Made by a program: the position numbers and the translations under genes
Shown here: one piece after another, positions 3,914-22,171 of the stretch
Position numbering within the stretch: position 1 is the first letter of the stretch
Layout: each line of letters opens with the position of its first letter
Source of the DNA: a virus
IMG/VR virus record: IMGVR_UViG_3300008121_000022
Coordinates: 1-25,566 of that record
Length of the DNA: 25,566 nucleotides
Reading direction: 5' to 3' (one strand)
The notes under the pieces: model-generated
The model's input: only the letters and a program-made list of their open reading frames with translations
Told to the model about the DNA's origin: nothing
The model's database searches: none

Positions 3914-5149
3914 TTATGGGACGATTAACTGACCTCTAGAACTATCGAAAGTTAAGAAATCCTGTAGCGAGATTGAGTTCTCAATATTAACAGTCTTAGC
4001 CATCTTACGTGCCATACCAGTCTTAGCGATGGTAGGGGCAGCAACAAGTTGCATCGAAGCAGTTTCACTAATGTCAAGAATAGGTGTTTTTTGCCATGTG
4101 CGTTGGAAGATACCAGCGCGACCACCGTTTTCAATCGTACCGCCAAGAATGCGATTGAATTGACCTTGACGACTCAAGAATACAATAGTACCTTCATCAA
4201 GTAAACGAGTAGGTGCAGATTGACCATTAGCGTCACTCAACTCTACTTGTCCATCTTCTAAAACAAATTTGGGTAGGTAACGATTGCCCATTACTTCGTT
4301 AATTTGAGCGATAGAAGGTGTTCCAGTGATAACGTTACCAAGAACGTTAGCAGCAACAACAGCTTCCTTAACAGACTTGCAACGAGCGATGTTTAGGAAC
4401 AGGCGCTCACCGATAGCAATTTCGTCGGCAGGGAACCCGTTTGTGCGTTTGTACTGAGTGTGCATGTCTGCAAGGTCTTGCAGAGGGTCTGCTGTCTCAT
4501 GTTGAGTCCAGTCTCTTTTTAAACTATCGACAGTCTCAGTTCCAGCAAAGTCCGTCTGATAGATAGGGAAAGGAAAATGGTTAGCACGGATAGCGATAGC
4601 CTTTGTCCAATCCAAATCTGCCTTTAGACCTGTACGTTGGTCTGTGTACTGCATTTTGCCAGTTTGAAGTGTTTGCCATGCAAGATAGTCAATCAAGTTG
4701 ATATGACCGCGAACGAGAGAAGCAAGAGTACCAAAGATATTCTTGGCAAGCTCGTTATCTTGACCTAACTGTACCTTACCTTCAGAAACTTGAATATTCT
4801 GGATGGTGATTCCACGAATCTTAGCAAGTTCCGAAACCTCAGCCATTCTCCACTGGGTATCTTCATCCCAGTGGTAGGCAATCGCAGCCTTATAGTTACG
4901 AGCTTGAATCTTGGAAAAGTCACCCTTTTTAGCTTCAGGGTAATCTTGCCCTGTAGCTACCAGAGACGCAATGGGGTCAACAGTTGTCGAAATGTATGCT
5001 AACCAATCACGACCAGTCTTCTCAATGAGAGGAACATAAGTATTGAGAACTTTTGAACGTTCCTTCAACTGACGGAGAGTATTGTTTACAACGAGGTCGG
5101 CAGCTTTTGCAGCGCGTCCTTCTTTTAGAAAATTTTCAATATATGCCAT
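3914..5149 (-). CDS. Major capsid protein, lambda gpE-like
   Basis: This 411-residue protein is the best candidate for the HK97-fold shell subunit. It follows scaffold and decoration genes, has the usual length, and shows features like lambda gpE-type capsid proteins. These include a long N-terminal helix (1-40), 'DWLAYISTTVDPIASLVA' around 48-65, and a central helix ending 'IDYLAWQTLQTGKMQY' (about 153-168), where the family has a similar L-x-T-G-K-Y. A late segment 'GNRYLPKFVLEDGQ' is typical of the peripheral strand region. An AGGAG lies 12 bases before the ATG. The Ala-x-Phe motif found in neighbouring proteins is absent from its N-terminus (only Glu-Asn-Phe at 5-7), so the shell subunit itself may not be cut. 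Confidence 0.8.
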   Translation of the reverse strand: MAYIENFLKEGRAAKAADLVVNNTLRQLKERSKVLNTYVPLIEKTGRDWLAYISTTVDPIASLVATGQDYPEAKKGDFSKIQARNYKAAIAYHWDEDTQWRMAEVSELAKIRGITIQNIQVSEGKVQLGQDNELAKNIFGTLASLVRGHINLIDYLAWQTLQTGKMQYTDQRTGLKADLDWTKAIAIRANHFPFPIYQTDFAGTETVDSLKRDWTQHETADPLQDLADMHTQYKRTNGFPADEIAIGERLFLNIARCKSVKEAVVAANVLGNVITGTPSIAQINEVMGNRYLPKFVLEDGQVELSDANGQSAPTRLLDEGTIVFLSRQGQFNRILGGTIENGGRAGIFQRTWQKTPILDISETASMQLVAAPTIAKTGMARKMAKTVNIENSISLQDFLTFDSSRGQLIVP

Positions 5150-6088: not shown

Positions 6089-7000
6089 TTATAGTCCGAA
6101 ATCCAGACCCATAGCTACAAGGTCGCCCTTAGCAGCTTCTTCAAGTGATTTTGAGAAATTGGCAGTCGCAACTTCTTCAGCAGATACTGAAAAGTCTTTG
6201 AATTGTGTGACATTTGCAACGTTACGCAATAGAGAGTAAGCAAACTCTGACATATTGAGTTGCTCCTGCAAATCACGCGCACCGTTAGTCTCAGCGATTC
6301 CTGTAAACTGTGCAACTCTCTTACGAGAGTCAGAGAAGTTCCCAATCAGAGCTTCTTTCATTGCAGGAGTGATAATACCGTCAACTACGTCTTGAGTAAT
6401 ACGTGCATCGAGGTCAGTCAATGCTTGGGAGAGCTGAGCTTCAAACTGAGCTTGTGCAAAGTTAGCTTGAAGGGCTTCGTTTTCTGCACGTACACGCTGA
6501 ATTTCATCGGCTACTTGTTTATTAAAGTTAGCTTGAATTGCGGGATTGTATGCAGCAGCATAGTTAGCAGCTTCTTCAGTCATAGGTTCTCTTGCGCCTC
6601 CTTCAGCGCCTTCAGTTTCATATTGTGCTTCTAAAGCTTGACGGTCTTGTTCCAATACACCATCAGCAACTTCGATGAGCTTATCAAGGTCTTCTTCTGT
6701 TGCGTCAGGGAATGCGGAAATCATCGCTTCTAAATCTTCAACATTATCAACGAGGTTTTCACCGCTAATATAGCCAGTCACATCTTCTTCACTCAAGCCA
6801 GTTGCCTGAACAAGAGCTTGAATACCAGCACTGATTGCAGGGGAAGTATCCTCTGGGTCAGTAATTAGGTCAGCAAACTGAGCCTCAATTAAGTCTAGAA
6901 GTAATTCGCCAAAAGCGTTAGTAGGGTTGAGTTCAGTCGCATCTTGACTTCCTCCCTCCATACCAGCGTCCTGAGCGCCTAAATCTTGTTCTTCATCCAT
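6089..7000 (-). CDS. Head scaffolding protein
   Basis: This 303-residue protein is strongly acidic at the N-terminus (MDEEQDLGAQDAG), lacks cysteine, and has long Ala/Glu/Gln-rich helices, with a likely coiled coil near 155-205. That is the make-up of phage scaffolds, which direct shell assembly and are then removed. It sits between the glycine-zipper genes and the decoration and capsid genes. Ala-x-Phe occurs six times (Phe at about 42, 159, 181, 186, 232 and 282), more than expected for the composition, and this fits multi-site cutting by the prohead protease. The last copy, 'TANFSKSLEE', lies about 20 residues from the C-terminus. There is no Shine-Dalgarno site; the leader is AT-rich and follows a hairpin. 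Confidence 0.7.
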   Translation of the reverse strand: MDEEQDLGAQDAGMEGGSQDATELNPTNAFGELLLDLIEAQFADLITDPEDTSPAISAGIQALVQATGLSEEDVTGYISGENLVDNVEDLEAMISAFPDATEEDLDKLIEVADGVLEQDRQALEAQYETEGAEGGAREPMTEEAANYAAAYNPAIQANFNKQVADEIQRVRAENEALQANFAQAQFEAQLSQALTDLDARITQDVVDGIITPAMKEALIGNFSDSRKRVAQFTGIAETNGARDLQEQLNMSEFAYSLLRNVANVTQFKDFSVSAEEVATANFSKSLEEAAKGDLVAMGLDFGL

Positions 7001-7086: not shown

Positions 7087-8976
7087 TTACATTTTAGGTT
7101 GGTCTTCTTCCAAAACTTTAGGCTTACGACTAGCCAACGCGCCAAGCGCTAGCAATCCACCACCAGCAACTACTCCAGTACCAATAGCAGTGTTTCTAGC
7201 ACCTTCATTAGTATGTAGATAATCGCCTACACCCTGCAATGCACCTGCTTTAGCAACCTTTGCCTTAGCTCCTTGAGCCATAGGAAGTACGCTTAATGCT
7301 CGGTTCAATAGACCTCCAACAGCTCCACCTCTAACATCAGCCGCTTTATTTTTAAAAGTATTACCGAGAGGGTCAGCAATGTATCTTCCTGCTTGTACTA
7401 ATAGACTAGGAGCATTGACTGCATCACTAACAACCCGTCCAATACCAAACTCAGCCGACTTCAGCCCACGTTGTTGAAATACCGCAGACTTACGAATACT
7501 CTTACTGAAATACTTGCCAGTCGGCTTACCTGATTCAATCATCGAGTTGATTTCCTTTACACCCATACTCGCAGGGATTCTAGGTTCCCTAGCCTTCTTT
7601 TTCTGCATCTTGCCACGCAAAGTTGTTTCAAGACTGACAACTCCAGTATTATCTTGAGGGATATATGTACTGCCTTTTTGAATTAGGCGTTGAATTGTAG
7701 CTGGGTCTTGAAAATTGGCTGACTTACGAATTGTCTTCTCAAATCCAGTAGTATTTCGGATTCCTTGTCTAATGTCTTGTCCCACGTCTTTGATGTCCCT
7801 TTTAGTTACATAGTTTTTAAATTTATCCCAACGACTCATACCATCAAGTTTTGTATCTAAATCTTTAGACATATTTTCTGGGATTTGAGCCTCGGCTTGA
7901 TTAGTAGCTCTCTCATTAGCACGTCTAACTCTTGCAGATTGAATTTTTTCTGGGGTAGGCTGAGGAATATGAGAAATACCTTTGAACTTATTATACCCAT
8001 ACCCAGCACCAGCGCCAAGTCCGCCACCAATTGCAGTCTTACCTACAATCTTACCGAGGCGACCACCGATACCAGTGTTTTCGCGCTCTCTATCAGATTC
8101 TCCGATACCAAGTCCAGAAGCTAAACCTAAGCCAGCGCCGATTTTAGCGCCAAGGTTCACATTAGGATGTAAGTTGAGGTTTGGCAATGCAAAGTTAGCA
8201 CTCTTTCTGATTTTTTTAGACATTTTAGTTGTTGTAGGAGGTAATTGTGGTCGGTCACCAAATAAGTGACCAGCAGTTTTGCTACCCACATATCCAATTC
8301 CCGCACCAGCAGCAGCACGAAGAGTAGATTTCTTCAGTGTGTTGCCAGCACGACCAAGCTTGGAGTTGAAGGAGTCGTAGTCACGCAGTCTGTTGGCTCG
8401 TTCTTCAGGGTCAGAGATATATTCAATCTCTTTTCTGCCCTCCCAATATTGCTTATCTACATCTTGAAAACCAGATAATGCTCCAGCAGCAGCTCCTGTT
8501 TTAGCTAACAAGCCGTGAATGGGATTAGCAAAATCTGCTTTACTGAAAAGGCTTTCAGGGTCTTGTTTAGTCAATCCTGCAAGTGCAGCATTTTTTACGG
8601 CGGATTTAATATCTATATCATTTGCACTATTTACTAGATGTTTTCCTATACCATAGCCAGCAGCAGCTCCAGCAGCACCTAAAGCTACCTTACCGCCTGT
8701 TTCAGTAACACCTTTCTTTGCCTGTAGTTGCCACTTCCTATCATCGTAATCACGTCGAAGTTTGGTAAGTGTTGCATTACGTTCTGAAGGGTCTTGAATT
8801 GAGTTAGCTTCTCTCACATTAGATTGGTAGTCTAGGTCAGATGACATGCCATCATATTTAGCATCACGCTCGGCTTTTCGTTTAAGAAGTCCTTGACCCG
8901 ACTTTACTGCTAAATAGCCACCACCAATAGCTCCACCTGTACCAGCAACATCTTCAAGAAAATTGAAATTAGCCAT
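7087..8976 (-). CDS. Glycine-zipper internal virion polyprotein candidate
   Basis: This 629-residue protein matches no family I know. Its start is the ATG at 8976, which overlaps the upstream stop as TAATG; a longer frame from 8997 is less likely. Gly/Ala-rich hydrophobic segments (about 11-30, 95-115, 158-170, 220-238, 276-292, 308-328, 598-616) look like glycine-zipper membrane hairpins. Between them lie basic, helical stretches. Two contain an I-x-D-P-x-E-R signature (60-66 and 187-193). Ile-Arg-Lys-Ser-Ala-x-Phe recurs at 256-262, 416-422 and 494-500, with Lys-Ser-Ala-Glu-Phe at 506-510 and Lys-Ala-Asp-Phe at 146-149. The copies use different codons, so the repeat is kept at protein level. 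I infer a precursor cut by the nearby prohead protease into membrane-active internal proteins. A tape measure is less likely given its location. Confidence 0.6.
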   Translation of the reverse strand: MANFNFLEDVAGTGGAIGGGYLAVKSGQGLLKRKAERDAKYDGMSSDLDYQSNVREANSIQDPSERNATLTKLRRDYDDRKWQLQAKKGVTETGGKVALGAAGAAAGYGIGKHLVNSANDIDIKSAVKNAALAGLTKQDPESLFSKADFANPIHGLLAKTGAAAGALSGFQDVDKQYWEGRKEIEYISDPEERANRLRDYDSFNSKLGRAGNTLKKSTLRAAAGAGIGYVGSKTAGHLFGDRPQLPPTTTKMSKKIRKSANFALPNLNLHPNVNLGAKIGAGLGLASGLGIGESDRERENTGIGGRLGKIVGKTAIGGGLGAGAGYGYNKFKGISHIPQPTPEKIQSARVRRANERATNQAEAQIPENMSKDLDTKLDGMSRWDKFKNYVTKRDIKDVGQDIRQGIRNTTGFEKTIRKSANFQDPATIQRLIQKGSTYIPQDNTGVVSLETTLRGKMQKKKAREPRIPASMGVKEINSMIESGKPTGKYFSKSIRKSAVFQQRGLKSAEFGIGRVVSDAVNAPSLLVQAGRYIADPLGNTFKNKAADVRGGAVGGLLNRALSVLPMAQGAKAKVAKAGALQGVGDYLHTNEGARNTAIGTGVVAGGGLLALGALASRKPKVLEEDQPKM

Positions 8977-9437
8977 TAGTTGCCACCACCAAACCATCTG
9001 CTAGGGTTAAGACCTAAATCGTTTGCTACTTGCTTGGCTTCTGCCGCACGTTCAAGTCTTTGGTCGTAGTTACCAAACATATTAGGTATAGCTACGTTGT
9101 CAGCTTGCTCTGTGAGTTTCTGCACAGGAATTTTAACACCAAGGTTTTGAGGGATGTCGTACTTGGTTTTGAAATGCTGAAGCCCATCAATAGCCCTGTC
9201 TTTTACATCAACACCTGTCTCTCTTAAAACTTTCTGTGCTTCTGGATTGCCACCTAAAGCATAGCCAGCACCGATACCTCCTAATGCAAGCGAAGCACGA
9301 ACTCCTCTACGATACTTAGGTTGGTCTTCACTATTCTCGACAGTTATTTGAGTTGCAAATTCTGCCACAGCACTTTGATAAGACCTGAGAAAGGTTGCGT
9401 AGATGGAATTATAGTTTCGAGAGTATTTCTTAGACAT
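8976..9437 (-). CDS. Small glycine-zipper protein, probable internal virion protein
   Basis: The protein has 153 residues. After a basic, Tyr-rich N-terminus it carries 'AVAEF' (Phe at 27), then a charged stretch, then a glycine-zipper segment 'ASLALGGIGAGYALGG' (48-63), and a helical C-terminal half. The order Ala-x-Phe, about 20 residues, Gly-zipper is the same as in the two flanking genes. It therefore looks like a one-unit version of their repeated module. The stop overlaps the next start (TAATG). No enzyme motif is visible. Confidence is high that it is a gene and low on exact function. Confidence 0.6.
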   Translation of the reverse strand: MSKKYSRNYNSIYATFLRSYQSAVAEFATQITVENSEDQPKYRRGVRASLALGGIGAGYALGGNPEAQKVLRETGVDVKDRAIDGLQHFKTKYDIPQNLGVKIPVQKLTEQADNVAIPNMFGNYDQRLERAAEAKQVANDLGLNPSRWFGGGN

Positions 9438-9451
9438 AATTTTATTGTACC

Positions 9452-10792
9452 TTACTTATTATCGAAGTTAATTTTCTTGAGTCCAACCCCTAGAGCTGTC
9501 TTATAGTCGCCATCAAGAGCTGCATCGACTAGCTGAGCGCGAGAACCGTCATCAATTACTTGACCTCTTGCCTTGGATAGTAAGCCAGCACGTAACTCAG
9601 GGTCTTGAATGCGGTCAAGAGCTGCCAACTTTTCAGCTTCCAGTATTTCATCTTTTTTAGCAGCTTCCTTTTTCCTACGATACAATCCATACCCAGCACC
9701 AGCAATACCGATGACTGGCGCGATGAATGGTAGAAAGAAATCAGCACTTTGTTTTAGTTTAGGTTTTGAGTAGGCAGCTTGAGTCCGATAATTTGTCCAA
9801 CGAGGTTTGTTGTCACGTTTTTCTTTTTCAGTGTTTGGTGTCGGAGCAATAAGAGGATGAGCCAAAGTCTCAGGAACAATATTAGACAGCCCTAATGCAG
9901 TAGGTACATTACTTATTACATTATCGATATTATATTGGGCACTGTTATAATAATCCAAAGCTGCGGCTCTCTCTTCTTTGTCCTTAAGCTTGTTTATCTT
10001 AAGGGCATCGTCATTACGTTTCTTGTTCAGTCCAGATAACAAACCATACCCTCCAACAGCAATAGCAGCAGCTTTTCTTAAATCAACTCCTTGAGGCTTA
10101 GGGCGACCAAAAAAGAAATTAGCTTGTTTAGCCGATGAATTAAAGTGATTGTAACCTAGTCGTGGTTGTAACTCTTGTTCAGGCTGCTGGGCTTGTGCTT
10201 GTCGTTGTTCTAGCAGTAAGTTTCTTTTAGCCATAATTTCAGCTACTTTGTCACGATGCCATTGAGCCTGAACTTGCTTTTCCTTTTCCGCTTTCTTATT
10301 TTTTTGGTTGGTATATATAGCTGCACCTGCGGCAATAGGTGCAAGAGTCAGTCCAGCTAAGGTTCCAGTTACAGCATTCTCATTTGCCCCAAAACGGTCT
10401 ATTACTCTATTAGATACATAATTTACAGCAGGAGCTACTAATGGTAAATTACTATTAGCATACTTATCTCTTAGGTCTTGCTCATCTAATCGTTTTTTAT
10501 GTTGCTGTTGTGCATGTTTTTGAGCCGCTTTTCCTTGAGGGGTTACAGTTGCTGCTGGAGAGGGATTACCTTGATTAAGTGTTTGATTGTAGACTTGTTT
10601 GGCTTGTGCTCTCATCTGTGCAGCTTCATTCATCTGCGCTTGACTTAGAGGTGTATTCTGACCAGCAGCAGCTCTGGGGTTATTGAGATTAGGTAACTGA
10701 GGCTGACCAGCCAAGCCTCTATTCTGGGCATTACGTTTAAGCCCATTCCTACCTACCCTCGTATTTTGCCTAATGGCAAATTCACTTAACAT
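9452..10792 (-). CDS. Glycine-zipper protein with repeated modules, probable internal virion protein
   Basis: This 446-residue protein starts 7 bases inside the end of the protease gene. Residues 40-110 are Gln/Ala-rich and probably disordered. Three Gly/Ala hydrophobic segments follow: 'TLAGLTLAPIAAGAAIY' (144-160), 'AAAIAVGGYGLLSG' (241-254), and 'FIAPVIGIAGAGYGLY' (356-371). The last two come after Gln-Ala-Asn-Phe (223-226) and Ser-Ala-Asp-Phe (349-352). Each is followed by a basic patch and a helix with 'KDKEERAAALDYY' (270-282) or 'IQDPELRAGLL' (395-405). The same unit occurs in the 629-residue protein. Placement between protease and scaffold suggests an internal head protein. No known homologue comes to mind. 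Confidence 0.6.
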   Translation of the reverse strand: MLSEFAIRQNTRVGRNGLKRNAQNRGLAGQPQLPNLNNPRAAAGQNTPLSQAQMNEAAQMRAQAKQVYNQTLNQGNPSPAATVTPQGKAAQKHAQQQHKKRLDEQDLRDKYANSNLPLVAPAVNYVSNRVIDRFGANENAVTGTLAGLTLAPIAAGAAIYTNQKNKKAEKEKQVQAQWHRDKVAEIMAKRNLLLEQRQAQAQQPEQELQPRLGYNHFNSSAKQANFFFGRPKPQGVDLRKAAAIAVGGYGLLSGLNKKRNDDALKINKLKDKEERAAALDYYNSAQYNIDNVISNVPTALGLSNIVPETLAHPLIAPTPNTEKEKRDNKPRWTNYRTQAAYSKPKLKQSADFFLPFIAPVIGIAGAGYGLYRRKKEAAKKDEILEAEKLAALDRIQDPELRAGLLSKARGQVIDDGSRAQLVDAALDGDYKTALGVGLKKINFDNK

Positions 10793-11820
10793 TTAGCTGC
10801 ACTTCCTCGTACATACTTTTTGGTAGTACCTTTTGATAAATTGAACTGAGCTAATTTATTAGTACCACGTCTATATGTGGTTTGTTGTTGTAGTTGTGGG
10901 ATTGTCATGCCACTCTCAGCACCCCCTTGCAACTGCGCTTGAGCTTGAGCAGCTTGGTCTTGAGGAGCAATTGCACCAGCTTGCGCGGTCTGGTTCATTT
11001 GCTGCATTAATGAAGTTAATCCAAGTAATTCGATGATTTTTACACTAAAACCATTTAACTGAGAATAAATTAATTGCAATAAAACTTCAGGGGAGTCAAT
11101 GTTAATCGCATCGTTATCATAAGCGTTTTTTAACAAAAGCCACAGTTTCTGGCAAATTTCATTGTACTCGTCCTGCAAATCATCAATCGCTTGGTCGTTA
11201 GCTTCAAGTTCATCCCATGTCACAGCATTACCACTATCAGGAATACCTGAAAAATTGGCAGTACTACTCATTGCCTTCAAGACCTTTTTATGAAATAGTC
11301 CCATATTAGGAATTGCAGGAATAGGGACAAGGCTCAATTCCATAATGCGATGCTCATTGGGGTCAAGATTTAGTCCCATGCTAACACTTTTGACTCCAGA
11401 CTTCAATGCTTCGATTCCTTTAACTGCTGCAACTTTCACACCAGATAGGAACATCCCCAGCTTACCGATAAGATGTTGAGAGTTCTGGTTAGGTAAGTCT
11501 TCTGGTGTAATTACTTTAGTGAAAGCTCTTCCAGAAATACTTCCAATAGTATTGGGAATATCTTTCTTGTGGTCGGCACAAACTGGAACTACAGTGCCGC
11601 TATCAATAGCTTTGTTAGTATGTTCAACAATTGTTTGCAAACGTTCAGGAGTAAATTCATGTTCCACATCAGTACTATCTGTAAATTTACCTTCAGTGGC
11701 AACCAAAGCAGTGTATTCGTCCTTGATAGGAACGCCAGTCACCAACACCTGCCCCAACTCAAAGTTGGCTCTTGATGTTGGGGCTTTAAAATATGCAATA
11801 TTAGGCGAGGTTTTCTTCAT
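10786..11820 (-). CDS. Prohead (capsid maturation) protease with C-terminal scaffold-like region
   Basis: Residues about 21-190 of 344 fit the HK97-type prohead serine protease fold. A candidate catalytic His84 lies in 'VCADHKKD', a candidate Ser145 or Ser147 in 'GVKSVSMGL', and the hallmark 'MELSLVPIPAIPNM' spans 160-173, where these proteases have E-x-S-L-V-x-x-P-A. The enzyme cleaves scaffold and internal proteins before packaging. The remainder (200-344) is helical, then Gln/Ala-rich, like scaffolds fused to such proteases. Three Ala-x-Phe sites fall at its natural borders: Phe20 (end of a short leader), Phe190 (end of the protease domain) and Phe326 (before a basic tail). That is the layout expected of self-processing. 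An XRE regulator is transcribed divergently 42 bases upstream. Confidence 0.75.
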   Translation of the reverse strand: MKKTSPNIAYFKAPTSRANFELGQVLVTGVPIKDEYTALVATEGKFTDSTDVEHEFTPERLQTIVEHTNKAIDSGTVVPVCADHKKDIPNTIGSISGRAFTKVITPEDLPNQNSQHLIGKLGMFLSGVKVAAVKGIEALKSGVKSVSMGLNLDPNEHRIMELSLVPIPAIPNMGLFHKKVLKAMSSTANFSGIPDSGNAVTWDELEANDQAIDDLQDEYNEICQKLWLLLKNAYDNDAINIDSPEVLLQLIYSQLNGFSVKIIELLGLTSLMQQMNQTAQAGAIAPQDQAAQAQAQLQGGAESGMTIPQLQQQTTYRRGTNKLAQFNLSKGTTKKYVRGSAAKC

Positions 11821-11862: not shown

Positions 11863-12105
11863 ATGAACGACAAATCATTATTTAACCAACAAGTCGGGGA
11901 AAAGCTTCGTAGTTTACGCAAAGCCAAGAATAAATCTCAGGCTAGTGTGGGGGCAGATTTTTCTTTCTCTCAAGATGTGGTTAGTGAAATTGAAAGAGGT
12001 AAACGACCTCTTGAGGTCTATGAATTAATGGCGTTTAGTAAATATTATGAAAAACCTATAACGTACTTTTTCATGAACTCAGCATTACCCTCTAAAAATC
12101 CTTAA
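11863..12105 (+). CDS. XRE/Cro-type helix-turn-helix regulator
   Basis: This is an 80-residue single-domain repressor-like protein. Residues 11-65 follow the XRE pattern: 'VGEKLRSLRKAKNKSQ' (helix 1 and start of helix 2), 'GADFSFSQDVVSEIERGKR' (recognition helix with the typical S-x-x-x-x-S-x-[IL]-E-x-G-x-R), and 'LEVYELMAFSKYY'. The short tail 'PITYFF' is common in small members of the family. It is one of few plus-strand genes and lies alone inside the head operon, ending convergently with a 14-base overlap with the next minus gene. It could set the timing of late genes or be a lysogeny-type regulator. Nothing else in the window points to lysogeny. Confidence 0.85.
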   Translation: MNDKSLFNQQVGEKLRSLRKAKNKSQASVGADFSFSQDVVSEIERGKRPLEVYELMAFSKYYEKPITYFFMNSALPSKNP

Positions 12106-12691
12106 AATGTTTAAAGGAAATGGACATCGGGGCAAGTTTAGGTCTGCGTAACTTAGAAATAGCTTCACCTATTTTAGGGACTGCACCTTTGACGGCATCC
12201 ACACCCATTTTTGGTGCATCATAAAAATAAAATTTAGGTCTTGTAACAACTTGTGCTTTGGCAGTTTGTAGTGCAGCTTTACCTGATTCTTGTAATACTT
12301 CTCTAGGGGTTAGTTTGCGCCCAAGTTCTTTTTGTTTATCATAAACTCCTCGAACATTTCGATAAGTTGCGGACATGCCATCCGCAATTGGATTTCCCCA
12401 ACCTTCACTATCACGTAACACTTGCCCTCCAGTTTCAAGGGCAGCTTTAGCAACTCTAGTCGGAAGTTTATCCGCAGCATTAGCTTTATAAGTATCTTTA
12501 GCTGTCTTTGCCCATTTAGGGAAGTTAGGGGCGTTCATGGCTACAGGAAGCACACTCAAGTCACCAAAGCTAGGTTGGTAACTATAGATAGCATGTCTCG
12601 CTGCATCTAAAGTTGAAGGAATGTCTACGTGTTGAAGAGCTTGAAGTCCCTCAAATATAAATTCAGCTCGTTGTTGCGGTTTGGATGTCAT
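12092..12691 (-). CDS. Hypothetical head-module protein with N-terminal Ala-x-Phe site
   Basis: I do not recognise this 199-residue protein. It is basic and helical, with 'SKPQQRAEFIFEGLQALQ' at the start (Ala-Glu-Phe at 9-11), a middle containing 'NFPKWAKTAKDTYKANAADK', and Ala/Lys-rich helices 70-170. It lacks glycine zippers. The N-terminal Ala-x-Phe resembles that of the protease and the glycine-zipper proteins, so it may be another internal head protein processed on assembly. The 3' end overlaps the plus-strand regulator gene. A promoter-like sequence lies about 55 bases upstream. Confidence 0.55.
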   Translation of the reverse strand: MTSKPQQRAEFIFEGLQALQHVDIPSTLDAARHAIYSYQPSFGDLSVLPVAMNAPNFPKWAKTAKDTYKANAADKLPTRVAKAALETGGQVLRDSEGWGNPIADGMSATYRNVRGVYDKQKELGRKLTPREVLQESGKAALQTAKAQVVTRPKFYFYDAPKMGVDAVKGAVPKIGEAISKLRRPKLAPMSISFKHFKDF

Positions 12692-12799: not shown

Positions 12800-13006
12800 C
12801 TAAACGCGATTGATGATTTGGACACTTTTAGCCACCTTATTCACAATATTTTTTTCTGCCCCAACAAAGTTGAGAGCATCCAATCCTGACTCTACTATAC
12901 GTGGTAAATTAGCTGCATCTGGTGGAGGTAGCCGAGGTGCAGAGAATGTAGAGTAGTAATCGGAGTGCCTAAGCCTCCTTGAGGTGGGCGATTGAGTGGA
13001 GGCTTC
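12800..13006 (-). other. Open -1 frame extending the head morphogenesis gene
   Basis: In the -1 frame relative to the head morphogenesis gene, an open stretch of 68 codons runs from just after a TAA at 13009-13007 to a TAG at 12802-12800. It reads like real protein: 'HSDYYSTFSAPRLPPPDA' followed by an amphipathic C-terminus 'GLDALNFVGAEKNIVNKVAK'. It has no good start codon of its own. The annotated frame over the same DNA ends in a low-complexity His/Leu/Tyr run that looks non-coding. An AAGGAGG sits at 12980-12974. Either the gene shifts to -1 here or the sequence carries an indel. Confidence 0.55.
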
Positions 13007-14310
13007 TTAGGGTCGAAGTCTTCTTCGTCAACGTCTTCAATTAATGACCAGTAACATTGGCAGTTGGGATGGAAAACTATAGAAGGCTTATTATGATTGC
13101 GCCACATAGTTGCACCTCCTTTTTTATAATTGATAACATCTCCTGCACTTCTCTGGTTCTCAATTATCTCAAACAGGTAATATTCCAATCCATCTTGAAT
13201 CTCACAATCTTCGCATGGAACAGGGTCAGTTCTCTTACTTCCATTTGATAATCTCTTGTAGCGGCTAATCAAAGCATACTCTCGGTCAACGTTCCATCGG
13301 AATCGCTTGTATCTATCTGCTTTGCCTCCAAACGCAGCTACCTTACCGAAATTATATGCGATGCTTAACTCAGTCTTTACGATTAAATCTGGCGACTGTT
13401 GCTTGAACGCTCCTTGTAGCCCTTCTTGGTCTTTGTTGATAATATTACGAATGCGTACTTTGAGAAGGTTTAGGTCGTATTCGTATTTGTTACGTTGAGA
13501 CTTAATATTAGTAATGTATTCTCGGTTGTCTGCTAAAAATAATGCAACAGCCTTGCGAATTTGTTTGTTACTTTCGGTTGAGTAGGATGCTTGCAATATT
13601 CGACGGCGCTTACCTAGATAGTTACTTGATATAAAGTTTTGCTTCTCATCACTGCTGCCATATAGGAAGTTCATCATGGCAGCTTTGGCGCTGTTGGTAC
13701 TATCGCTTATCTTGTTGAGCATATAGACATTGCGCGATACTTCGTCAGCTATTTTGACTCGCTCTTGTACCTTGGCTACATCATTGATATTAGTCTGTTC
13801 CGTTCTTTGATTTAGCAGATTGTTGACTGCATTTCTAGTCAGTGCGTATCTGGCTCGGTTTTGCATATTTTGCCCATAGTCATCGTTAGGGGCTGCAAAC
13901 TCTGCTGATAACTCTTTGGTGTCTTCTGTAATAACTACGCTATCAAAGTACTTGCGGATATCGTCATCGCCATACTCGTACAAGTAGTCGTACATTTGGT
14001 GTCTAAGCGCCAACTTAATCATCGACTCAAAATTAGTAGTCAATACCTTGTTGAACTCGACTTGCACTTTGGCAAAGTATTTGGCAGTGATGTCACTTAC
14101 ATTCTTTTCTGCAAACTTGTCAAAGATGGTATCTGGTACTTCATAGATGCTGGCATTCGATTTAGCAATCCACTTAGCCAATTCATCGACAAAAGTGTTT
14201 TTAGCGAAGTTACTATTAATAGCTCTACGAACTCCCAAAATAGATTCAGCCAACGCCTTGAAGTATTCTTGCGTCTTGAACTCTTTGAAGCTATTTGACT
14301 GTTTTCGCAT
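12895..14310 (-). CDS. Head morphogenesis / minor capsid protein, Mu gpF - SPP1 gp7-like
   Basis: This 471-residue protein is mostly helical. Near the C-terminus it has the cysteine/histidine signature of the phage Mu F-like family: 'VPCEDCEIQDG' (two Cys), then 'FHPNCQCYWSLIEDV' (two more). These usually mark a small metal- or disulfide-stabilised fold in portal-associated minor head proteins. A Ser-Ala-Glu-Phe site lies near 135-138. The last 20 or so residues in this frame (after 'NRPPQGGLGTP') are His/Leu-rich and look wrong. The -1 frame continues convincingly to 12800, so the true product may be about 30 residues longer. The gene is divergent from an HU-like gene with a 38-base gap. The portal normally found upstream is missing. 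Confidence 0.7.
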   Translation of the reverse strand: MRKQSNSFKEFKTQEYFKALAESILGVRRAINSNFAKNTFVDELAKWIAKSNASIYEVPDTIFDKFAEKNVSDITAKYFAKVQVEFNKVLTTNFESMIKLALRHQMYDYLYEYGDDDIRKYFDSVVITEDTKELSAEFAAPNDDYGQNMQNRARYALTRNAVNNLLNQRTEQTNINDVAKVQERVKIADEVSRNVYMLNKISDSTNSAKAAMMNFLYGSSDEKQNFISSNYLGKRRRILQASYSTESNKQIRKAVALFLADNREYITNIKSQRNKYEYDLNLLKVRIRNIINKDQEGLQGAFKQQSPDLIVKTELSIAYNFGKVAAFGGKADRYKRFRWNVDREYALISRYKRLSNGSKRTDPVPCEDCEIQDGLEYYLFEIIENQRSAGDVINYKKGGATMWRNHNKPSIVFHPNCQCYWSLIEDVDEEDFDPKKPPLNRPPQGGLGTPITTLHSLHLGYLHQMQLIYHV

Positions 14311-14348: not shown

Positions 14349-14906
14349 ATGACACAACTTACACCCGAACCTTACGTCGATACCGTAAGGAAGCAGAAAG
14401 AGAAAAACCTTATCAATGTAACCAAGAAGACACGCAAACACATTCCAGCTTACGTTTTCCAAGCTCATGCCAATCTACTTGAACGCTTTCCAGATACGGG
14501 AAGTTTCCTGACCCCAGCATTCATCTACCAAACCCTCCGTGAGATTACTAAAGCTATTGAAGCTCAGTTATGTGCTGACGAGACTGCCACTATTGATATT
14601 TTTGGTTTGGGAAAATTTGTACTACTTCGCAAGAAAGCTTATAGAAGCGAAGATAAAACAAGAGAGCAACTGTACCTCAAGTTTAGGCACTCTCAGGTAT
14701 TTCTATATAAACTGAGACGGCATCACGGCACAGCGACCGCAGCCGAACTCAAGACGCTAGAGAAGTCGAACAACTACATGAAGGAGCTACAAGCCAAGCG
14801 CGAGAGATTTTTGCGCGAACGGGAAATGAAACGTAAAGGCGAACTCAACGAACTTGACCCAAGTAATTATCTGAGCCAATTTTCAAGTGTTCTTGACCTC
14901 AACTAA
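14349..14906 (+). CDS. HU/IHF-like DNA-binding protein
   Basis: This is a 185-residue protein with an HU-type core at about 55-124. A helical part 'FIYQTLREITKAIEAQL' is followed by 'ATIDIFGLGKFVLLRKKAYRS', which matches the family's V-x-I-x-G-F-G-x-F strand turn and basic arm. The closing 'LYLKFRHSQVFLYKLRR' fits the last strand and helix. The core is preceded by a basic 50-residue leader, and 'ELKTLEKSNNYMKELQAKRERFLRERE' forms a charged, probably coiled-coil tail. HU proteins bend DNA, so it could shape the phage chromosome or assist packaging or regulation. It is on the plus strand, and its TAA overlaps the fibre gene's TAG end to end (14903-14906). Confidence 0.6.
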   Translation: MTQLTPEPYVDTVRKQKEKNLINVTKKTRKHIPAYVFQAHANLLERFPDTGSFLTPAFIYQTLREITKAIEAQLCADETATIDIFGLGKFVLLRKKAYRSEDKTREQLYLKFRHSQVFLYKLRRHHGTATAAELKTLEKSNNYMKELQAKRERFLREREMKRKGELNELDPSNYLSQFSSVLDLN

Positions 14907-17900
14907 ACTGTGTAAGCACTACTAGGTGGGGCAAAACTTGCGCCGTTGTAAAGCGAAATCCTCCTGTACACCACAAACGAATCTAAATTGATGTTCAAGC
15001 CACTTGTAGTTATTGCAGTGGCTTGTCCTATTTGTGCATCAGTATTCCAGTCACGGTACTCGTAATCATCAGCAGCTTCGTACACTCGAACTCCACCAAC
15101 ATGCAGTCTCAGTGTTCCATTCTGTTTCGTCAAAGCGATATGATTGAATACAGTAGAGGATATAGGTAAGGCGACAGAAAACAAAGCAAGTCCTAGTACT
15201 AATGAGCGACCTAAGTACAATCGGTCGGCAGAAAAGAATAGTGATAATCCTTGTTGTGTATAAATGTTAATAACTTCGGCTCCAGTAGTAGCACGGTCAG
15301 CCAATAGCCAACCTGCAATGGTAAAATCCTCCGACAAAAAAGAATAGTCTGAGTCATTGGGTACTTGCACATAAGCTGGTACGCTGTTTTTAGCAATTGG
15401 GAAGCTGGTGGCTCCAAACTTCTTGTTAACTGTGTCGAGTACCGAGATATTGCTGGTCAAAGTCTTGGCGCGATAACTTCCATCTACGATGCTGCTGTCA
15501 AAGTTCAATAATGTAACTATTTTGGCTGGCTGATAGTAGTCTCGAATGCTACTTTCTATTACTGCAAACAAGTCTGCCTCAATTTTATAGTCAACAGTGC
15601 AAAACATGGCTACACTACCTTTTACACTTCTGTCCTCGAACACCCTGTCTTTGGCAATAGAGTTGATGGTTACTAGGTCAGTTGAATTGAATATCACCAC
15701 ACTAAGAGATTCTTCAGGCAGCACATAATCTCTCTCTCTTTCTGCCCCGTTCGCCCAGACATCTCCATAGAAATCTGTTGCTAGAAGTTCCCCATCATTG
15801 CCAGAGTTAAAGATGTTGTTACTATTCTGCCCAAACAAGAAAGCTATGCCAGTTTGCCCTGCTTTGCGTATGTAAGCAATGATAAAGCAGTATCCACTAC
15901 TACTGCTAGGTGTGCCGAAATCTAGCCGTGAAGAGCCATCTATATTAAATCTAGCTGCGGGTAGTCCATCTAATTGTGTAGGTGTGATGTAGTTGACTGC
16001 ATTTACTCCAAGAAGCTCTTGTCCATTAGTTCGATACTCATCAAGTTGAAGTATATTGCCACTAGATAAAGTGACGACATCAGGGGTCACGATGAAAAAT
16101 GAGCTAAAGGTGTTAAGCAACCCTTTCAGGTCGATATAAAGTTGATTAGTAAGTAAGGTGATGCTGACGTTAAAGCTGAATGTGAGTGATTCGGTTGAAG
16201 TGTATGCACGAATAGTAAAGCTGATGAAGTCATCGGTTGGACAAGTAAATGTGAGGTCGTTCCCAGTTATCGTTGCTGAGTAGTGGTTAACTAGTATCTC
16301 GTATTCTATGGTGTTACCAGCTATTTCAGTAACCTTTTTGTTAAGGTTAACAATAACGTTTTCAGTGTATCTGAACTCTGTCTCAGTACTGAAGAGTAAT
16401 AGTGTTGAATCAAAAAACTTATTAGCTAAGAGGTGAGTAGCCGTTGCAAGTTCATCATCGCCTAATGCAACCGACCAACCGATAAAATACAGTAGTTCTC
16501 CTTTTAATTGAGAAGTAAGACCGCTAAAAGGTATCGATGTTCCAGAATTAGTTGCAGTAATAATTGCCCCATATTCATTTGGGAATCGATAATTGAAGGC
16601 ATTTACCGCAACCTTATTAACCTTTGTATTAAGTTGAGTTATAGCTGTTGTACCAAATATTTCCTCACTGGTAGCAGTAGTCCAAAGAACACCGTTAGCA
16701 AATATATCTGGGAAGCCATTAGCCATAAAGCGTTCCCCAATCTGCTTTTGTTTGTATACCCAGATTAATGTTTTGCAGTTAACGGTTGTTCCTAATAGTG
16801 TTCTGGGATTAAGAGAACTATTAGTTATAAAAGACGCAGTTGCTCCATCGTAAGTGATTTGATTAGTTCCTATATCACTTGCTATGTATAAAGGTCTATT
16901 AGGTAATCGTCGGCAGTCTTCCCATTTAACTATATTATCGAATGTATCGGCATAAATCCCGTAAGGAATGTCATCACTATCTTTTAGTGGAGAAAGAGCT
17001 ACGGTTATATTAGATTGTTGTGGGAAGTCTAGTACAAATGGGTCAGGACGAACAGTTTCTAAGCTAAAACTGAATGTAGATACCATACTATTGCTATTAG
17101 TAATGCTGATAATAAACTCACCATCAAATACTTCTGGTACATAGCCCGATAAAATTGAGCCTGTAAAACTGAGTCCTAATCCACTAGGAGATACATAGGT
17201 ATAGCTAACAATATCAAAAAACTCATCGATAGCAATAGTAGCAAAATCAAAACTAAAAAAAGCATCTACCAATATTCTGAATGTTGGCTGAGAAGATATT
17301 GACACTCCATTGTAGTTAACATATATTTCCGCCAACTTAGCTTCAACAGAGGCAAGTATGTCTAAAGGACAAGGGGACTCTGCTGTGATGATTGCAGCTA
17401 TCTTACCTCGAACACTTAACCCTCCTCCAGTAGCGCTCCCACCAAAACCAGAGACAATCTCATATTGATTAGCATTATCTATACTGGTGACACTAAGGAT
17501 TCTGGTGTTATTGAGGGGAACAAAGACATCTGGTGAGACTGAACGGCTATTGATTCGTGACGTTGCATTATAGATAGAGTTATTTGCAAGAGGCTGCTCT
17601 GCCCATAATGAAGTAGCCCCAGAACGAAAGATATCAAAAAATGTTGGTGGGTCACCAGCTATGGAGCCAAAAGAGTACACAGGAAGACTACCTGCAACTC
17701 TTGTAAGGTAAACAATAATTAATGTGCCGACCTTTACTGAATTTCTGAATACTAAAGATTGATTACCACTATTTGCAAAGTCTATACTAGGTTGCCCATT
17801 GAACTGACTATCATTAGAGATAAGTGTTGGTGGATTACTCGAAGCTTGAAGAAAATTTCCATCAAACAACAAATTATAAATAGTTTGGATTTGGTTTGCA

Positions 17901-18052
17901 CCATTAGCACCAATTTTAGAGAAGGTTAAATAATCTGGATTGCACAGATATAATCCATTCAAATTTGGAATTAACTTTGCAACATCGTACACTTGACTAG
18001 TGTATGAGTATCCAGCAGAAAATGAATGATTATAAGCTGCCGATAATTTCAT
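14903..18052 (-). CDS. Large tail fibre / receptor-binding protein with lectin-like modules
   Basis: The 1049 residues hold three diverged lectin-like (concanavalin A/LamG type) modules at about 25-247, 362-550 and 640-842. Each has a strand series such as 'SIDFANSGNQSLVF' then '[VI]I[VA]Y..[RK]' and ends in a helix like 'ILASVEAKLAEIYVNY', the usual closing helix of phage lectin modules. Two beta-sandwich linkers (255-336 and 555-632) separate them. A fourth, canonical LamG domain closes the protein (846-1049), with 'EDFTIAGWLLAD' and 'FNHIALTKQNGTLRLHVGG'. Such proteins bind surface sugars of the host. It overlaps the upstream gene by 23 bases and meets the HU-like gene tail to tail. Confidence 0.7.
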   Translation of the reverse strand: MKLSAAYNHSFSAGYSYTSQVYDVAKLIPNLNGLYLCNPDYLTFSKIGANGANQIQTIYNLLFDGNFLQASSNPPTLISNDSQFNGQPSIDFANSGNQSLVFRNSVKVGTLIIVYLTRVAGSLPVYSFGSIAGDPPTFFDIFRSGATSLWAEQPLANNSIYNATSRINSRSVSPDVFVPLNNTRILSVTSIDNANQYEIVSGFGGSATGGGLSVRGKIAAIITAESPCPLDILASVEAKLAEIYVNYNGVSISSQPTFRILVDAFFSFDFATIAIDEFFDIVSYTYVSPSGLGLSFTGSILSGYVPEVFDGEFIISITNSNSMVSTFSFSLETVRPDPFVLDFPQQSNITVALSPLKDSDDIPYGIYADTFDNIVKWEDCRRLPNRPLYIASDIGTNQITYDGATASFITNSSLNPRTLLGTTVNCKTLIWVYKQKQIGERFMANGFPDIFANGVLWTTATSEEIFGTTAITQLNTKVNKVAVNAFNYRFPNEYGAIITATNSGTSIPFSGLTSQLKGELLYFIGWSVALGDDELATATHLLANKFFDSTLLLFSTETEFRYTENVIVNLNKKVTEIAGNTIEYEILVNHYSATITGNDLTFTCPTDDFISFTIRAYTSTESLTFSFNVSITLLTNQLYIDLKGLLNTFSSFFIVTPDVVTLSSGNILQLDEYRTNGQELLGVNAVNYITPTQLDGLPAARFNIDGSSRLDFGTPSSSSGYCFIIAYIRKAGQTGIAFLFGQNSNNIFNSGNDGELLATDFYGDVWANGAERERDYVLPEESLSVVIFNSTDLVTINSIAKDRVFEDRSVKGSVAMFCTVDYKIEADLFAVIESSIRDYYQPAKIVTLLNFDSSIVDGSYRAKTLTSNISVLDTVNKKFGATSFPIAKNSVPAYVQVPNDSDYSFLSEDFTIAGWLLADRATTGAEVINIYTQQGLSLFFSADRLYLGRSLVLGLALFSVALPISSTVFNHIALTKQNGTLRLHVGGVRVYEAADDYEYRDWNTDAQIGQATAITTSGLNINLDSFVVYRRISLYNGASFAPPSSAYTV

Positions 18053-20326: not shown

Positions 20327-22171
20327 TTAAGAGAATATCTGATTACCAATACTGCGATGAAAGTAATTAAAAGACTGAGAGTGAACCACATCTTCAAGCC
20401 CACCTAACCGACCAAATCTCATCGCTGGAGGTTGATAAATAGCATCAGTGTATCTTCCTTTGCCTACTGTTAAGCGCATTGAGTCAATACGTCCTATCAT
20501 ACTTACTTCTGCTGATGTAATAGCCAAATTAGTTGCTGGGGAATCTGTAACCAAGCCTTCTTTTTCTGTCAGCAGTTGCCCATCACAATGTACTTTGATG
20601 CTCGTCCCTACTCGCGTGACAGAAAAGAATATGTAGCGGCTATTTTGATATCTGAAAAGTCGGTTGGCGTTGTCAAATGTATAGGTGTTAGAGCCAATAA
20701 CTAATGTGAGTGTAAGGTTTTGAGTGCTGGCGGTTAGCTGACCAGTGTAAGTGATACTGAAGTTATCTGAGATGAAATAATTGTGCGTAATCTCTGAAGC
20801 TGATTCATAAAAAGCTGTATTTTGATATTGAAGATAGAACTCAAAAGTAAAATCTCCTATTACGTTAATAGTTGCAGTAGGGGAGATTGTAATGGTATCG
20901 ATAACATTATCAAACTCGGCTATTTTATTAGGGATTCCGAAGGTTGTAATATCTGTATCTTGCTGAGTAACACCCAGTAATGTTATTGGAACTGACAAAC
21001 TACTTTTATCTTCATACCAAAGCTTACTGCGCCATGTTTGTGTCTCAAAATCTAGTAGTAGTTTGACATATTTAAAGTAATCGTCGTATAGCTTAGGAGC
21101 CGCTAGTAATTGAGCTTGATTGTTCTCAATATCATACCTCCACGCAGGAACTCCTCCTTGACCTAATGTGGTTATATTGAGGGCTGCGGCTGTAACATAG
21201 GTAGTAACTATACCCTCAATATTTTGAACAAGGATAGTAATAATGTCTGTTTTCCCAGCACCTGATAACCGAATAGCTTTACCGTCTTCATATTTAACAT
21301 TTGTAAGACCACCGATAAGGATTTGTCCCGTATTTTGACGTATCTCGATTAGCATTACTGCTGCTTGATTACTTGCAGGAGAAATCTGAGGCAAAATAAT
21401 GCACTGAGCTTGAGTCTCTAGAGGGACTCCGTTTACAATCCAATAATCTGAAGTAGAGTAAGGAAGATTAATAGTAGGGGAGTTAGCCAGAATACTACTA
21501 ACACTACTGAAAGAATTATAAAGATAATTACCATTTGCATTAAGGTTGTTGCTTAAAGTGGGATTAGGGTCACGAATAATTTGAAGGTCTTGATTACTCC
21601 ATATTGTTCCCCCAGCATCAAGAGATAATATTTGATGTCGATGAGGGTTACCTTCGGTTCCTGTTGTAGGTGTCAGCTCAACATCACTAAGTTCGTTTAC
21701 TAAATTGAGCCTATTTCGAGGTTTCCATTTACCTGCTACTAAGTCCCAGTACAGTACTTGATTGGTGGTTAGACCTGTCAAATCTACGTCTGTAAGTTGT
21801 GACAGCGCATAAGATGGATTTGCATTCACATAAGCTTCCTTGAGAGGGTCATAACGTAAATACTGACCATCTGTAGGGTTATTTATTTCAAGGTCGCTCA
21901 GTCTATTAAGATTTCCAATTTGGGAGGCTGCTGTGAACTCATTGCCCGACTTAACAAAAAAATCACCATCACGCGCATTAACTATATTGACATCTTGTAG
22001 TTCAGTGAAATTTTGGACACCTTTTCCAATCTCGAATATCTTGCCAGTAAAATCCTTAGTATAAAGAATCGCTTGTTCATCTTTGAGCGCTATAACAAGT
22101 TCACCAACAGCAATTTCATGAGGTGACGGAATCGAGCCATTATTTAAAGTATGTTTAAGGATGGTTGGCAC
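20327..22171 (-). CDS. Tail fibre protein with repeat stalk and C-terminal lectin-like domain
   Basis: In this 614-residue protein the N-terminus (1-50) has the widespread phage fibre opening 'GSIPSPHEIAVGELVIALKDEQAILY'. Residues 57-190 hold four imperfect stalk repeats of about 30 residues that begin L-[QST]-D-[VL]-x-[IL], for example 'LSDLEINNPTDGQYLRYD' and 'LTDVDLTGLTTNQVLYWD'. After a linker, 'DPNPTLSNNLNANGNYL' (201-217) matches another fibre motif. The last 230 residues form a LamG-like beta sandwich with 'FTFEFYLQYQNTAF' and 'RYIFFSVTRVGTSIKVHCDG'. The gene overlaps its upstream neighbour by 17 bases. Confidence 0.75.
   Translation of the reverse strand: MPTILKHTLNNGSIPSPHEIAVGELVIALKDEQAILYTKDFTGKIFEIGKGVQNFTELQDVNIVNARDGDFFVKSGNEFTAASQIGNLNRLSDLEINNPTDGQYLRYDPLKEAYVNANPSYALSQLTDVDLTGLTTNQVLYWDLVAGKWKPRNRLNLVNELSDVELTPTTGTEGNPHRHQILSLDAGGTIWSNQDLQIIRDPNPTLSNNLNANGNYLYNSFSSVSSILANSPTINLPYSTSDYWIVNGVPLETQAQCIILPQISPASNQAAVMLIEIRQNTGQILIGGLTNVKYEDGKAIRLSGAGKTDIITILVQNIEGIVTTYVTAAALNITTLGQGGVPAWRYDIENNQAQLLAAPKLYDDYFKYVKLLLDFETQTWRSKLWYEDKSSLSVPITLLGVTQQDTDITTFGIPNKIAEFDNVIDTITISPTATINVIGDFTFEFYLQYQNTAFYESASEITHNYFISDNFSITYTGQLTASTQNLTLTLVIGSNTYTFDNANRLFRYQNSRYIFFSVTRVGTSIKVHCDGQLLTEKEGLVTDSPATNLAITSAEVSMIGRIDSMRLTVGKGRYTDAIYQPPAMRFGRLGGLEDVVHSQSFNYFHRSIGNQIFS

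Follow-up and report, generated by a model that had tools for sequence, protein, structure and literature searches.

In phage T4, the head protease gp21 removes the capsid-targeting tag, and the cleavage site ends in Glu. In phages of the SPN3US/phiKZ type, a single protease processes numerous head and ejection proteins by cutting after A-x-E, and it trims itself as well (PMC10052503). Some SPN3US propeptides are cut more than once, and 13 of the 14 sites remove N-terminal propeptides (PMC10052503). Here we describe a gene on the 25.6 kb virus record IMGVR_UViG_3300008121_000022 (the whole stretch is referred to as the window), whose 629-residue product carries several copies of the tripeptide Ala-x-Phe (A-x-F). 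From its sequence alone, this product had been read as a possible precursor polyprotein cut at such motifs. Our analysis supports the precursor, and we infer its cleavage: the sites are conserved, the modules between them are mobile, module A also occurs as a stand-alone protein, and a nearby protease-like protein has sites at its own domain borders.

Close relatives of the window are IMG/VR contigs of up to 148 kb and the Pseudanabaena phages PA-SR01 and Pam2. Both isolates are siphophages; their heads measure about 91-100 nm and their tails about 300 nm (PMC10286775, PMC9382816).

Ala-x-Phe sites and modules of the putative polyprotein

The gene and its putative pieces are as follows.

7087..8976, minus strand: putative precursor polyprotein gene, 629 residues, five modules and a 10-residue spacer; stop codon at 7089-7087
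8965..8976, minus strand: minimal leader M-A-N-F, which is site 1; L010 starts with M-A-N-F too
8530..8964, minus strand: module L, 145 residues, ends LFSKADF; glycine-rich helices either side of a charged helical hairpin (model of low confidence overall)
8191..8529, minus strand: module M, 113 residues, ends IRKSANF; hairpin type as in module L (model of low confidence overall)
7711..8190, minus strand: module A, 160 residues, ends IRKSANF; glycine-zipper module, elsewhere also in stand-alone tagged proteins
7477..7710, minus strand: module C, 78 residues, QDPATIQ...IRKSAVF; well conserved, without hydrophobic helix
7447..7476, minus strand: spacer peptide of 10 residues between two adjacent sites, ends KSAEF
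7090..7446, minus strand: module D, 119 residues, C-terminal; hydrophobic glycine-rich helix

Translation of the minus strand from the ATG at 8976 gives a protein that begins with M-A-N-F, and in this frame the coordinates and residue numbers of the sequence-only reading are correct. All five sites listed there are present: the heptamers IRKSANF (residues 256-262 and 416-422) and IRKSAVF (494-500), together with KSAEF (506-510) and KADF (146-149). It missed the N-terminal M-A-N-F and the sites in neighbouring genes. In total, six A-x-F sites are found, with Phe at residues 4, 149, 262, 422, 500 and 510. Cuts after every Phe would release a 4-residue leader and then pieces of 145, 113, 160, 78, 10 and 119 residues.

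This number of sites exceeds expectation from composition shuffles and from a first-order Markov model, both computed on the 636-residue open reading frame that starts 7 residues upstream of the 629-residue reading. KSA.F occurs four times (0.01 and 0.05 expected, respectively), (K/R).A.F four times (0.28 and 0.36; P 0.00015 and 0.0004) and A.F six times (1.8 and 2.4; P 0.006 and 0.03). The claim that the copies are coded differently is borne out as well. Across the four KSA.F copies, Ser is encoded by AGT, TCA, TCT and TCG, and Ala by GCT, GCC, GCG and GCT. Codon choice varies freely: each of the four Ala codons and either Phe codon is found among 34 IRKSA.F-like sites.

With the polyprotein as query, search for related loci found nothing; relatives were found with the protease-like protein of the same window as bait. 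No relative turned up when an alignment of this protein was searched against GTDB genomes. The family recovered is a narrow one, with relatives of the major capsid protein at least 77% identical. Loss of the heptamers in homologues had been named beforehand as a finding that would speak against the precursor, and the sites proved to be kept: in comparisons with relatives averaging 48% identity, site Ala is preserved in 47/47 cases and site Phe in 47/47, versus 171/330 (52%) and 20/60 (33%) for Ala and Phe outside the sites. Similarly, in the adjacent gene 9452-10792, 19/20 site Ala and 20/20 site Phe are kept, as against 44% and 51% of other Ala and Phe.

Glycine-rich hydrophobic stretches occur in four of the five large pieces. 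The earlier statement that most pieces carry a Gly/Ala-rich hydrophobic hairpin thus holds for these four in their composition and fails for the 78-residue module C, which lacks a hydrophobic helix (best Kyte-Doolittle window 0.02). Among Pam2 proteins, glycine-zipper density is highest in gp16, gp57, gp189 and gp17, and all four have A-x-F sites or the N-terminal tag described below. The AlphaFold2 model of the polyprotein, of low confidence, displays long helices in L and M and places most sites in coil; predicted local distance difference test (pLDDT) values reach 83 near the charged turn of module L. Pfam matches of the polyprotein to SLATT_fungal and MccV were below cut-off and were set aside.

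Module exchange and N-terminal tags

Proteins encoded between protease and scaffold genes in ten genomes were divided at A-x-F and the pieces were clustered. Gene layouts of the ten genomes differ by whole modules: at the sites, modules have been inserted, deleted, relocated or separated into genes of their own. The first gene after the protease gene (9452-10792 in the window) reads B-E-F in the window, L002 and L006 and B-E-I-F in L005 and L009. L004 has module R inserted between C and the spacer preceding D, and Pam2 has module X between D and the last A. The third in this order, which in the window is the polyprotein gene, starts with L-M and ends with D in the window and L010; most others start and end with A. 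Module C is entered via IRKSANF (or IRKAANF) in most genomes, the window included, and via KAVAEF/KAVADF in L012 and PA-SR01. In these two, C is located in another gene and D forms the C-terminal end of a separate gene. One precursor gene of PA-SR01 (L013:13600-15355) is represented by two adjacent open reading frames, L012 having one continuous gene; the split possibly stems from a frameshift or sequencing error.

Further, breakpoints of homology were compared with site positions. In module proteins, 31 left ends lie near A-x-F versus 12.6 expected, and 36 right ends versus 16.0. This excess, two to two and a half times expectation, was never reached in 500 randomisations. In all other proteins there is no excess (7 versus 9.5 and 7 versus 12.8 expected). 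Such an arrangement, in which independent units share a chain and a copy of the same site stands at each joint, is as expected of a viral precursor polyprotein.

The same kind of site also terminates a short N-terminal tag with the consensus M-x-H-F-(A/T/V/S)-x-F. In Pam2, 9 of 191 proteins start with x-x-H-F-x-x-F, compared with 0.004 expected from their compositions. The corresponding DNA pattern matches 8 of 10 records, whereas a reversed control pattern gave one match. In six full-length genomes (the two isolates and four contigs of 142-148 kb), M-x-H-F-x-x-F is found at 4-11 places per genome. By sequence, all tagged proteins can be assigned to 13 groups; one group is an SNF2-type helicase (Helicase_C, E 4.4e-16). 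Some tag places fall within a longer open frame, after about 135-218 residues (e.g. Pam2 gp189), and may therefore be internal joints. A kinase-like stretch preceding the tag in gp189 was considered, had no Pfam match and is not claimed. The annotation of the PA-SR01 DEAD/DEAH helicase (L013:17082-18878, minus strand) places about 127 residues ahead of MEHFANF, whereas in G007 24 residues of open frame precede the tag. Possibly the start was misannotated; alternatively, this tag may mark a further internal joint.

The length of sequence between tag and domain is variable. For group 5 proteins, the predicted mature start is IRLSDKNI (VRLTDSAI in PA-SR01); in one genome it directly follows MQHFANF. 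In others it is preceded by MQHFTHFATTTANF, MQHFASFQSPLASF, MQHFVSFHLSQANF or MQHFTHFGSSTASF, as in MQHFTHFATTTANF/IRLSDKNI and MQHFASFQSPLASF/IRLSDKNI. Although the spacer varies, the last A-x-F or S-x-F abuts the conserved domain in every case compared, and groups 3 and 4 behave alike.

A profile of module A retrieves stand-alone tagged proteins with E of about 1e-16 to 3e-40, so that one kind of unit is obtainable either from a precursor or from its own gene. Among tagged and site-bearing cargo, Pfam, PHROGs and PADLOC recognised only the helicase and, in Pam2 gp57, a weak internal-virion-protein match. Group 7 cargo (G001:3669-4544 and G004:78976-79908, tagged MRHFANF/MRHFVNF) shares an AHTHP...PS-x-x-D pattern. 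Its HTHP...S-x-x-D part resembles JAMM metalloproteases; there is no Pfam match, and such an identity is not claimed.

Intragenic duplication of one hairpin module might also produce a repeated heptamer, which would then be a by-product kept by descent only. Weak profile links indeed connect modules M, A, R, I, D, L, H and G, so that A, M, L, R, I and D are partly related, and module A is present twice in several genes. However, the site also precedes the unrelated modules C, X and J and tagged cargo, its codons differ between heptamer copies, and its Ala and Phe are much more strongly conserved than these residues are elsewhere. Since the sites persist in proteins whose remaining sequence is down to 48% identity, this explanation is largely refuted and hardly credible.

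Head gene cluster and the protease-like protein

Head genes are arranged on the minus strand in the order minor head candidate, protease-like gene, three precursor-like genes, probable scaffold and major capsid protein. The polyprotein gene described above is one of the three.

12895-14310, minus strand: possible Mu F-like minor head protein (weak PHROG match, E 0.094)
12092..12691, minus strand: 199-residue protein with N-terminal site MTSKPQQRAEF, kept 7/7
10786..11820, minus strand: head-maturation-protease-like protein; sites IAYF at 11, ANF at 20, TANF at 190 and LAQF at 326; conserved H84 and S147
11761..11769, minus strand: A-N-F site ahead of the protease-like domain (domain from residue 21), kept 14/14
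11251..11262, minus strand: T-A-N-F site behind the protease-like domain, kept 14/14; indel directly before the site
9452..10792, minus strand: second precursor-like gene, modules B, E and F; starts MLSEF; AKQANF at 226, KQSADF at 352
8976..9437, minus strand: third precursor-like gene, module K; SIYATF at 16, SAVAEF at 27
6089..7000, minus strand: probable scaffold, judged by position in the head cluster; five A-x-F sites, each kept in 14/14 relatives
3914..5149, minus strand: major capsid protein (PHROG 29, E 3.8e-19); the window copy has no A-x-F site

The protease-like gene, three genes upstream of the polyprotein gene, lies near scaffold-like and major capsid protein genes, as is usual for head maturation proteases. 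Its orthologues share an invariant A-D-H (H84) and, later, an invariant S-V-S-M-G (S147), an arrangement which we take to be that of the head maturation protease class. PHROG 976 "head maturation protease" is matched by 12 of 12 orthologues (best E 2.5e-5). For the PA-SR01 orthologue, a published HHpred search gave a match to Mu-like prophage I (PF10123, E 4.5e-18; PMC7431792). The sites at 20 and 190 are invariant and enclose the H84/S147 region, with indels close before each. Lacking a site, the major capsid protein of the window is probably left whole under the A-x-F rule; a 47 kDa band assigned by size to this protein in PA-SR01 fits an uncut product (PMC7431792).

The sites might instead act uncut, as docking or targeting signals to scaffold or prohead, with the multi-module protein acting whole. 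The N-terminal position of the tag is that of a targeting signal, and the first 30 residues of the phage P1 protein DarB direct it to the capsid (PMC9024508). Against uncut signals, sites occur inside proteins, sometimes two within about 10 residues; the last site abuts the conserved domain irrespective of spacer; and the protease-like domain is itself bordered by sites. In addition, modules are found both fused and as separate genes, which is simplest if fusion is undone by cleavage. We thus consider uncut signals unlikely.

If the sites are cut, the agent might still be a host protease, or cutting might follow ejection, rather than being performed by the phage head protease during assembly. 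Assignment of the protease comes from modest homology, and processing after delivery was proposed for polyvalent-protein precursors (PMC5512222). On the other hand, both scaffold and protease-like protein bear the same sites, which fits head maturation; we consider host or late cleavage very unlikely.

Just upstream of the protease gene, on the opposite strand, 11863-12105 (plus strand) encodes an 80-residue helix-turn-helix regulator (HTH_3, E 7e-7); Pam2_11, at a similar position, is annotated as a regulator. At 14349-14906 (plus strand), a 185-residue open reading frame weakly resembles HU/IHF proteins, its match to Bac_DNA_binding (E 0.026) lying below the cut-off. The 1049-residue product of 14903-18052 (minus strand) has a C-terminal concanavalin A-like domain (Laminin_G_3, E 5e-7); the Pam2 gene at the counterpart position is annotated "adaptor protein". 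In Pam2, the annotation calls Pam2_03 (L014:2064-3905) botulinum neurotoxin type B and Pam2_54 (L015:21601-22398) type A. Window gene 20327-22171, at the position of Pam2_03, has no Pfam match, and both neurotoxin names probably denote misannotated structural genes.

Proposed processing and comparison with known systems

Taken together, these data are in our view probably best explained by a prohead precursor that the protease cuts at A-x-F, with its modules packaged and ejected and with the tag targeting further cargo. Precursors and tagged proteins would enter the prohead core, and the protease would then be activated. The candidate head maturation protease (10786-11820) would cut after Phe of Ala-x-Phe, so that L, M, A, C and D become free small proteins within the head. 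It would also cut itself, the scaffold and neighbouring precursors. By analogy with the T4 capsid-targeting sequence, the N-terminal tag may direct unrelated proteins to the prohead and then be cut off. The four modules with glycine-rich hydrophobic helices are probably ejected with DNA and would work at or within the host membrane; module C lacks such a helix. A membrane-active role of ejected modules is the least certain part of this proposal.

Several points weigh against such processing. Neither virion mass spectrometry nor N-terminal sequencing for this phage group was found in the literature, and the PA-SR01 gel displays bands at 16, 28, 47 and 99 kDa only, matched to open reading frames by size and none to these genes (PMC7431792). 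HMMER comparison of the protease with Mu-like_Pro (PF10123) and Peptidase_S78 (PF04586) gave no match; hhalign against the Mu I profile, a weak comparison with an effective number of sequences of 1.07, was negative; and the AlphaFold2 model is unusable (mean pLDDT 33). Fold and catalytic residues are therefore not confirmed. Scaffold and protease are conserved throughout, hence conservation of their sites adds little or no support. Finally, breakpoints were drawn from related genomes and hence are not independent events.

If the proposal is correct, a precursor strategy usually linked to RNA viruses is used as a cassette system in a tailed phage. A sequence rule would then predict head-packaged proteins, mostly "hypothetical", in this group of freshwater cyanophages, together with their exact mature ends. 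The rule covers about ten tagged proteins per isolate (PA-SR01, Pam2) in addition to precursors. A broader idea, towards which we are nearly evenly divided with a slight leaning against, is that one tripeptide serves both as cleavage site and as exchange joint, forming a plug-in platform in which membrane-active and enzymatic cargo is swapped, added or removed among precursor genes and tagged stand-alone genes, the resulting set of small proteins being ejected into the cyanobacterium.

The sequence-only reading knew of no phage family described in this form. In the open-licence literature, we found no description of a phage precursor polyprotein of multi-cassette form cut by a prohead protease; this part stands, although T4, SPN3US and P1 provide precedents for packaged head proteins processed by proteases and for capsid-targeting tags. 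The tagged proteins are reminiscent of T4 IPI-IPIII, where a short N-terminal tag is present on diverse, phage-specific packaged proteins (PMC3012670). A short N-terminal sequence is likewise shared here by unrelated proteins, and only a functional likeness to T4 capsid targeting is claimed; tag and site are unlike those of T4. The residue preceding the cut (P1 position) would be Phe, and one precursor holds several units in a row, with exchange taking place at the sites. Packaged proteins are also known from the Dar system of phage P1, where DarB has an N-terminal capsid signal (PMC9024508); in these cyanophages, on the contrary, one consensus recurs.

The putative protease is likened to Mu protease I by a weak but consistent PHROG 976 profile match and by the published HHpred match, whereas direct comparison by HMMER and hhalign was negative. 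Mu I relatives keep Asp-x-x-His and then Ser; invariant His and Ser follow in the same order here. In Mu, scaffold Z arises from an internal start of the protease gene, whereas the window has a distinct scaffold-like gene further downstream. Polyvalent proteins (Iyer et al. 2017) likewise comprise several domains, and packaging and injection have been predicted for these phage proteins (PMC5512222). They have enzymatic domains and often their own peptidase domain, in contrast to the small, mostly helical modules between copies of one short site found here. To SPN3US, the present system is likened by its proposed processing rule; it differs in having several conserved modules per chain and Phe at the P1 position.
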